From positions 1 to 64,000 of the forward strand of contig JAETQY010000005.1 in the NCBI GenBank assembly GCA_021770445.1: 64,000 nucleotides of DNA, written 5' to 3'. Shown here in pieces: positions 42,531-43,255 of this stretch. This DNA is from Bacillota bacterium. Lineage in GTDB: Bacteria; Bacillota; Clostridia; Oscillospirales; Oscillospiraceae. The notes under the pieces are model-generated. The model worked only from the letters and a program-made list of their open reading frames with translations. It was not told the DNA's origin and made no database searches. A program made the position numbers and the translations under genes. The first letter of the stretch is position 1; the number at the start of each line of letters is the position of its first letter.

Positions 42531-42559
42531 TTGCATATACTGGGGAGCGGTGGTATAAT
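42531..42559 (+). promoter_or_regulatory. Strong promoter facing the small-peptide gene (candidate antisense RNA)
   Basis: TTGCAT (42531-42536), a 17-base spacer and TATAAT (42554-42559). Transcription should begin near 42566 and run through the terminator and then the antisense strand of the peptide gene at 42655-42753. No plus-strand protein gene follows until 42917. Confidence 0.7.
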
Positions 42560-42603
42560 AAACATTGCCAAGAAACTGGTCAGGAGATTCATGGCGCTCA
42601 TGC

Positions 42604-42637
42604 AAAAAAAGACCCCGGGGGTTGCCTCCCCGGGGTC
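42604..42637 (-). terminator. Terminator of the small-peptide mRNA
   Basis: On the minus strand, GACCCCGGGG, loop, CCCCGGGGTC and T7: very strong, 18 bases after the peptide stop codon. Confidence 0.85.
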
Positions 42638-42654
42638 CTGCTATGTACCGATGC

Positions 42655-42753
42655 TCACCTGCCCTTGCGGTGCCTGCCGAGCCATTTGCTCACGCAGTTG
42701 CCAACTACGCTCGCTATGACAGACACAAGAAAATTAGTCAGGATTTCTTCCAT
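42655..42753 (-). CDS. Small hydrophobic peptide, candidate type I toxin
   Basis: A 32-residue peptide, MEEILTNFLVSVIASVVGNC followed by VSKWLGRHRKGR. It has a short acidic start, one ~17-residue hydrophobic helix and a basic tail. This is the plan of membrane-acting type I toxins (Fst, TxpA, BsrG classes), although no close family is claimed. It has a perfect AAGGAGGTGA site five bases before the ATG, a consensus promoter (42810-42838) and a strong terminator, so the predicted mRNA is ~200 bases and fully self-contained. A strong opposing promoter lies just past the terminator. It could alternatively be a harmless small membrane peptide. Confidence 0.65.
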   Translation of the reverse strand: MEEILTNFLVSVIASVVGNCVSKWLGRHRKGR

Positions 42754-42809
42754 GACGCTCACCTCCTTCTGCTGCCTAAGTGTCAGCGCGGGAGAAGGGC
42801 GGCGGAATC

Positions 42810-42838
42810 ATTATACCATTGTTTGACAAAATCCGCAA
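42810..42838 (-). promoter_or_regulatory. Promoter of the small-peptide gene
   Basis: On the minus strand, TTGCGG (42833-42838), a 17-base spacer and TATAAT (42810-42815). The leader to the start codon is ~50 bases. Confidence 0.7.
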
Positions 42839-42916: not shown

Positions 42917-43255
42917 ATGTCCGACTGTTTATTCTGCAAGATCGCCGCCGGGGAGATCCCGTCCAACAAGGTCTACGAGGACGAGAAGTGCCTGGCCTTC
43001 TACGACATCGACCCCCAGGCTCCCACCCATTTTCTGGTGATCCCTAAGGCCCACATCGGCTCGGTGGCCGAGGTCACGGAGGCCAACGCCGCCACCGTGG
43101 CCCACATCTTCACCGTCATTGCCCAGCAGTGCAAAGAGCTGGGGCTGGACAGCTACCGGGTGGTGTCCAACATCGGGGAGCAAGCGGGACAGAGCGTGCC
43201 ACACCTACATTTCCACGTCCTGGCCGGCCGGGACATGACCTGGCCTCCGGGCTGA
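42917..43255 (+). CDS. HIT family (HinT-like) nucleotide hydrolase
   Basis: A 112-residue histidine-triad protein, probably a purine nucleoside phosphoramidase of the HinT type. N-terminal DCLFCKIAAGEIPSNKVYED and the catalytic triad VPHLHFHVLAGRDM are intact. AAAGGAGG precedes the ATG. It lies 7 bases before the LysR gene, so the two are cotranscribed. Confidence 0.95.
   Translation: MSDCLFCKIAAGEIPSNKVYEDEKCLAFYDIDPQAPTHFLVIPKAHIGSVAEVTEANAATVAHIFTVIAQQCKELGLDSYRVVSNIGEQAGQSVPHLHFHVLAGRDMTWPPG

Follow-up and report, generated by a model that had tools for sequence, protein, structure and literature searches.

A candidate chromosomal type I toxin-antitoxin locus of par-like design in an Oscillospiraceae genome

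The window, i.e. the whole stretch of 64,000 nucleotides of Oscillospiraceae DNA analysed in this study, carries on its minus strand a small transcription unit, which the first-pass annotation had described as a possible toxin gene. All of the parts claimed for it were found: a promoter with the -35 hexamer TTGCGG (42838-42833) and, after a 17-nt spacer, the -10 hexamer TATAAT (42815-42810) with TGG in front, a Shine-Dalgarno sequence AAGGAGGTGA (42768-42759), an ORF for 32 amino acids starting with ATG (42753-42655, also present in the ORF list), and an intrinsic terminator with a 12-bp stem (42639-42609) whose T-run lies on the toxin strand. The alignment of related loci described below revealed a further element within the spacer, TGTCAAA (42822..42828, minus strand), a one-base variant of the family element TGTCGRA. 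If transcription starts about 7 nt past the -10 hexamer, as the promoter suggests, the mRNA leader would comprise positions 42754..42803.

Past the toxin terminator and directed into it lies a plus-strand promoter consisting of TTGCAT (42531-42536) and TATAAT (42554-42559), again with a 17-nt spacer and TGG in front of the -10 hexamer. It was recovered at 42531-42559 as claimed, and the family alignment contains the -35 hexamer as well. Both promoters were absent from the output of a generic promoter scan. The statement that no protein gene before 42917 uses the plus-strand promoter also held, as for none of the ORFs listed there could a ribosome site be seen by eye. Judged likewise by eye, the gene at 42917 is presumably a HIT-family gene. 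The first-pass annotation overlooked, however, a direct repeat of the toxin start region located between the terminator and the plus-strand promoter. Copy 1, TGAGCGTCATGGAAGAAATCCTGACTAATTTTCTTG (42761-42726, minus strand), comprises the end of the Shine-Dalgarno sequence, the start codon and codons 2 to ~10. Copy 2, TGAGCGCCATGAATCTCCTGACCAGTTTCTTG (42600-42569 in minus-strand reading), is in plus-strand reading the predicted 5' part of the antisense RNA and complementary to copy 1. Because of this arrangement the 5' end of the antisense RNA would be complementary to the toxin translation start. Judging from promoter, repeat and terminator, the predicted antitoxin RNA runs on the plus strand from ~42566 to at least 42639, through the repeat and the shared terminator.

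The window peptide, MEEILTNFLVSVIASVVGNCVSKWLGRHRKGR, shows one hydrophobic helix, a conserved Trp and a basic tail. Its most hydrophobic 19-residue stretch comprises residues 4-22 (mean 1.8), and a single-sequence AlphaFold2 model predicts a single helix from residue 2 to 31 (mean pLDDT 92). We presume that the peptide inserts into the membrane. In the source genome (2.64 Mb, 79 contigs) seven loci of this family were detected. Among the genomes of the own and related species, 15 of 30 (the own genome counted) gave matches at E <=1. After removal of 20 of the 50 similarity matches, which either failed a filter for ORF, ribosome site and Trp motif or were duplicates, 30 loci remained for comparison. 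The Trp proved invariant in all 30 peptides. A scan with a DNA pattern listed at least 132 matches. Removal of 3 repeats and of 20 matches at a contig edge or with no start codon in frame left 109 loci; those with new peptides that passed the filters make up a set of 92 further loci. In the 122 family peptides the Trp is followed by L or I without exception, a count that is partly given by construction since many of them were gathered by a DNA pattern containing that codon. The tail past the Trp carries a net positive charge in 63, no net charge in 34 and a negative charge in 25 of these 122 peptides.

The promoter pair is likewise conserved. When no more than one of the scored positions was allowed to deviate, the antisense promoter was recovered at its expected place in 29 of 30 loci, compared to 0.4% of shuffles, and the toxin promoter at its own in 26 of 30, compared to 0.3%. 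Of the 109 DNA-pattern loci, 63 show the antisense -10 in its strict form; a -10-like hexamer anywhere in 160 nt, which is weak evidence, occurs in 107. In the source genome the word TTGCATATAC from the antisense promoter occurs four times, three of them at family loci; no family member was found at the fourth. Conservation at different loci, a check proposed in the first-pass annotation, had a favourable outcome. The same applies to the second check, a bias towards synonymous sites: dN/dS in the 30 loci was 0.25-0.45 (codons 2-10, 11-29 and 11-18), which shows the family peptide to be under purifying selection.

The repeat of the window reached a score of 31, a value not attained in any of 5000 shuffles (best shuffle 30). 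A single score near 30 is not decisive, for an unrelated ORF reached 29 when this gapped repeat score was applied to it over 150 nt. In the source genome the own toxin was the best match of the repeat in 7 of 7 loci. In the 30 loci from the own and related species this was the case in 29 (0 of 100,000 permutations), with a mean score of 35.7 for the own locus and 15.9 for other loci; the near-identical paralogues L041 and L042 tie with each other in this test. Both controls were null, codons 13-29 with 7441 of 10,000 permutations and the reverse complement with 4194 of 10,000. In the 92 further loci with different peptides the own toxin was first or tied in 74 (0 of 20,000 permutations), and the repeat score was 21 or lower in 6. 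Furthermore, the own repeat was best in 11 of 11 loci (ten on plasmids, one in an inovirus) picked from 255 plasmid and 14 phage records. In these 11 loci, -10 patterns were found for the antisense RNA in 10 and for the toxin in 8. One of the 30 loci, L014 (1498-1593), has a toxin-like ORF, a ribosome site and a promoter; neither a repeat nor an antisense promoter was found there.

Predicted duplex energies point in the same direction. The seven cognate pairs of the source genome range from -41.7 to -52.5 kcal/mol and the non-cognate ones from -16.8 to -42.5. For each toxin mRNA the predicted duplex is strongest with the cognate antisense RNA (7 of 7 rows, 6 of 7 columns); the column that deviates is that of the L006 antisense RNA, with -42.5 for the L004 mRNA versus -41.7 for its own mRNA. 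In the 30 loci the cognate duplex ranked first in 27 rows and 27 columns. Taken singly, a locus as short as this one might be a fortuitous reading frame that happens to lie between a terminator and two promoters with no relation to each other. With seven paralogues, more than 100 relatives, purifying selection and a start-site repeat far above permutations, the probability of such a coincidence appears negligible.

On these grounds, we regard the locus as very probably a chromosomal type I toxin-antitoxin system of the par (RNA I/RNA II) design. The minus-strand mRNA would encode a membrane peptide which, if overproduced, is probably toxic to the cell that makes it. The plus-strand RNA, beginning at ~42566, would complement with its first ~40 nt the toxin Shine-Dalgarno sequence, the start codon and codons 2-10 by means of the locus-specific repeat. 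It would also include the terminator stem, pair with the mRNA and block ribosome loading. The parts, their conservation, the selection on the peptide and the specificity of the complementarity for the own locus can be read from the sequences, whereas transcription of both RNAs, the translational block, membrane insertion and toxicity are predictions.

The first-pass annotation had proposed a type I toxin-antitoxin locus whose antisense RNA is transcribed convergently and had taken TxpA/RatA and BsrG/SR4 as its model. The first part is backed by the paralogues, the promoter pair, the purifying selection and the locus-specific complementarity, whereas the model was not retained, the start-site repeat being that of the par/Fst design. 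TxpA/RatA and BsrG/SR4 rest on an overlap of the 3' ends, and to our knowledge they are without a start-site repeat. These Bacillus subtilis systems resemble the present locus in their convergent transcription and small membrane toxin (PMC6563280, PMC4147584), and the mechanism given for TxpA/RatA in a review table is stimulated mRNA degradation (PMC4147584). If the locus functioned in this way, the antisense RNA would act by 3' overlap and trigger degradation of the mRNA, and the repeat would be incidental. The convergent layout and the shared terminator region would fit. The terminator stem is common to both strands, and the window locus has T at only 3 of 9 positions on the antisense side (among the 30 loci a script detected a stem in 25, with 2 to 6 T, and none in 5). 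Because of these few T residues the antisense RNA may extend across the ORF, and the missing clear T-run would allow a longer 3' overlap. An incidental repeat, however, would not track its own toxin in 29 of 30, 74 of 92 and 11 of 11 loci. Since the start-site repeat is the conserved and locus-specific element, we set TxpA/RatA aside as a model and consider an action by 3' overlap quite unlikely.

The par design, which we prefer, is that of Fst of plasmid pAD1 and its chromosomal homologues, the Fst/Ldr superfamily. With these the window locus shares the convergent promoters, the repeats common to the mRNA start and the antisense 5' end, a terminator stem common to both strands (here with few T on the antisense side), and a single-helix peptide of ~30 amino acids with a Trp between helix and charged tail. 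A review of Fst describes convergent RNAs, a bidirectional terminator and the repeats DRa/DRb over the ribosome site, to which the antisense 5' repeat of the toxin start site found here would correspond (PMC7472228). The same review reports for Fst peptides a Trp between helix and charged tail and, in most members, a P/D/S/TxxxG motif, and states that the repeats are poorly conserved between Fst systems that do not cross-react (PMC7472228). There are differences, too. The window peptide has SVIAS at the usual place of the P/D/S/TxxxG motif, and the motif occurs in it only as SKWLG across the Trp; somewhere in the sequence it is present in 70 of the 122 family peptides. Moreover, the toxin promoters studied here share the TGTCGRA spacer element.

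At the level of sequence the relationship to Fst is less clear. The window peptide matched neither the NCBI nor the Pfam model of Fst, and in Pfam it gave nothing at all. The NCBI model NF033608 matched 1 of the 30 peptides of profile A1 (E 0.98) and 9 of the 73 peptides of profile A2 (E <=0.1), and in none of the 61 same-genus genomes was anything above its cut-off. A profile comparison of the family with three Fst peptides by hhalign yielded a probability of 1.1%. The Pfam model Ldr_toxin was matched by eight of 73 relatives (best 0.0049), a level at which matches to unrelated families of small membrane proteins, e.g. Phage_holin_3_3 (22) and ATPase_gene1 (16), were commoner. Rfam gave only a sub-threshold match for the locus, and a PDB sequence search with the window peptide returned nothing relevant. 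A relative on a Megamonas plasmid, 40% identical to the window peptide, is annotated as Fst family and reaches 29.2 bits with NF033608 (cut-off 26 bits). In 398 genomes of the phylum this cut-off was exceeded in one, G574, with three canonical Fst loci. These have a start-site repeat at the same place, scoring 33, 33 and 28, values without a permutation control that have to be read beside the 29 of an unrelated ORF in the same script. One of them adjoins a member of the window-peptide family (repeat score 38). The family thus probably works like par/Fst, while its membership in Fst by sequence is unproven.

Alternatively, the family to which the locus is to be assigned might not be Fst but NF047374, the type I toxins of Clostridioides difficile. 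In these clostridial systems (CD0956.2 family), too, a small membrane toxin is paired with an antisense RNA, and there are weak sequence matches: 28 of the 73 peptides match this model at E <=0.1 (best 2.4e-5), the window peptide itself at 0.026. The scores inspected, from 14.9 bits for the window peptide to 24.6 bits for the best one, lie well below the cut-off of 60 bits, and it is the Fst model whose cut-off the Megamonas relative exceeds. The RNAs of the C. difficile systems are described as overlapping near the 3' end (PMC7699646), and the term "direct repeat" has 0 occurrences in that paper. We consider an assignment to this family unlikely.

A literature search, which covered mainly freely accessible papers, gave none that we recognised as describing this family. 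Fst homologues and the small proteins of microbiomes have been surveyed before. Being so short, type I toxin genes escape most annotation, and the family of the window peptide is largely unannotated. Among 40 plasmid matches listed, a named gene lay under one, in a gene table known to be incomplete.

The seven loci of the source genome would represent a natural set of cognate RNA pairs in one cell, and a concrete case of insulation between paralogous toxin-antitoxin pairs. At the RNA level they resemble the Fst-type systems SprA1/SprA1AS and SprA2/SprA2AS of Staphylococcus aureus. As described in two papers, a cis-encoded antisense RNA acts there in trans, with a non-overlapping 5' part on the ribosome site, and the two cognate pairs do not cross-react (PMC6393315, PMC8383071). 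We compared the divergence of codons 2-10, which lie in the repeat, with that of codons 11-29. In the 30 loci, gathered by protein similarity, codons 2-10 had diverged 1.05 to 1.8 times as much at synonymous and 1.4 to 2.4 times as much at nonsynonymous sites, with the largest ratios in the closest pairs; dN/dS was 0.29-0.37 in codons 2-10 and 0.25-0.30 in codons 11-29. One reading would be that codons 2-10 have been diversified for RNA specificity inside a peptide that is still under selection. An approximately twofold faster divergence of codons 2-10 in 125 ORFs was discarded, since most of that set had been selected for an exact DNA match inside codons 11-29, so that divergence in these codons was kept low.

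In the 30 loci the toxin promoters share the consensus cTTGcg, TGTCGRA within the 17-nt spacer and then TGgTATAAT. Each of the seven positions of TGTCGRA is conserved in 25 to 28 loci. The pattern TGTCGnA-N3-TGnTAynnT has six matches in the source genome, one at each of the toxin promoters besides that of the window, which has TGTCAAA (control 1); a stricter pattern has three, again all toxin promoters (control 0). Both patterns were built from toxin promoters, and at such a length about one match is expected by chance, so finding no others indicates no more than that the element is not generally used. We hypothesize a shared regulator reading TGTCGRA, which could switch several toxins at the same time; common descent is another possible source of the element. 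On the same contig beyond the window lies a second family member, L003 (G000:C19:71349-71432), whose toxin promoter is spanned by an inverted repeat, CAGCCTTGCG...CGAAGGCTG.

For the toxin leaders, a nested folding that masks the Shine-Dalgarno sequence was not enriched over shuffles (0.727 versus 0.726, n=29). A possible H-type pseudoknot over this site was better than at least 95% of 40 shuffles in 50 of 122 leaders (about 9 expected), with a mean of -14.9 compared to -6.4 for shuffles. The window leader by itself showed no significant structure, 12 of 40 shuffles being as good for the pseudoknot. The further tests conflict. A pair test (S1) was marginal, with 195 of 5000 permutations reaching the observed value and a C-A mismatch in 17 of 38 arm pairs. 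A swap test (S2) gave 423 of 20,000, its reversed control 868 of 5000; with 121 leaders the swap test was positive (z -3.1), but so was the reversed control (z -2.4). We treat the pseudoknot, which these folding models suggest for many leaders, as a lead rather than a claim. For the SprA systems, in contrast, pseudoknots were shown by probing.

A more far-reaching interpretation would combine these observations. The loci would form a large, Fst-like but separate type I toxin family throughout the Bacillota, in which RNA-antidote pairs (seven here) are mutually insulated by changes in the first ten codons, the toxin promoters are jointly controlled by a factor reading TGTCGRA and the leader may fold into a pseudoknot over the ribosome site. 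We put this forward tentatively, as a rather doubtful extension of the par-like reading.

The family is wide but patchy in its distribution. With profile A1 (30 peptides, E <=0.01) matches were detected in 24 of 61 same-genus genomes, the own included, with up to eight matches each. Profile A2 (73 peptides, E <=1e-6) detected the family in 13 of 245 genomes of the order and 14 of 398 of the phylum, the own genome being counted in both. Among the matches listed in the DNA-pattern scan of named genomes were Oscillibacter, Lawsonibacter, Flintibacter, Colidextribacter, Pseudoflavonifractor, Faecalibacterium, Ruminococcus, Lachnospiraceae, Anaerovibrio, Selenomonas, Holdemanella and others. Par-like RNA control would thereby be extended to many gut Clostridia and to Negativicutes.

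The surroundings of the HIT-like gene (42917) were compared in 28 loci, namely those with a located HIT start among 30 examined of 59 HIT matches. An intact family member lies within 900 nt of this gene in the same orientation in 8 of them, the window included. At least three different toxin types occur at this site in the 28 loci. The toxin site beside the HIT-like gene is old. Relatives also show decay, as read by eye from one alignment. In L194 the otherwise invariant Trp is changed by a missense mutation, and L201 is a mostly erased copy. Upstream of the HIT-like gene, L199 shows the scar of a deletion between the two direct repeats, possibly a natural route by which such loci are lost. 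L191, also upstream of this gene, is a toxin-less remnant similar to the window type, with terminator, repeat and antisense promoter, and adjoins an intact member of another type. Antitoxin-only loci are on record for another type I family (PMC11264685).

Toxicity of the peptide is predicted here from sequence, and a conserved chromosomal place beside the HIT-like gene (8 of 28 genomes, the own counted) would also suit a regulated membrane peptide with another function, e.g. a signal, a small membrane regulator or a bacteriocin, with the antisense RNA as an ordinary translational switch. The occurrence of the family with the same repeat design on small plasmids and in an inovirus, the patchy and decaying distribution and a design that is that of known toxins argue against such a function, which we consider very unlikely compared to a toxin.

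Some further occurrences were observed. Tandem arrays of three members, ~330-400 nt apart, are present in L216 (G046:C15; 353, 689 and 1018, minus strand) and L218 (G498:C23; 381, 776 and 1178, plus strand). The inovirus member (L180:4761-4844; PQ006183.1, bajarodino virus 15, from rodent faeces) has its own repeat and an antisense -10 hexamer, and lies where no gene is annotated. Weak matches were obtained in 197 Enterococcus plasmid records, those listed showing mostly ~48% identity over 25 residues (E ~0.3-0.5). In one Enterococcus lactis record (L220:601-675; NZ_CP082964.1, near ssb), the repeat is present.
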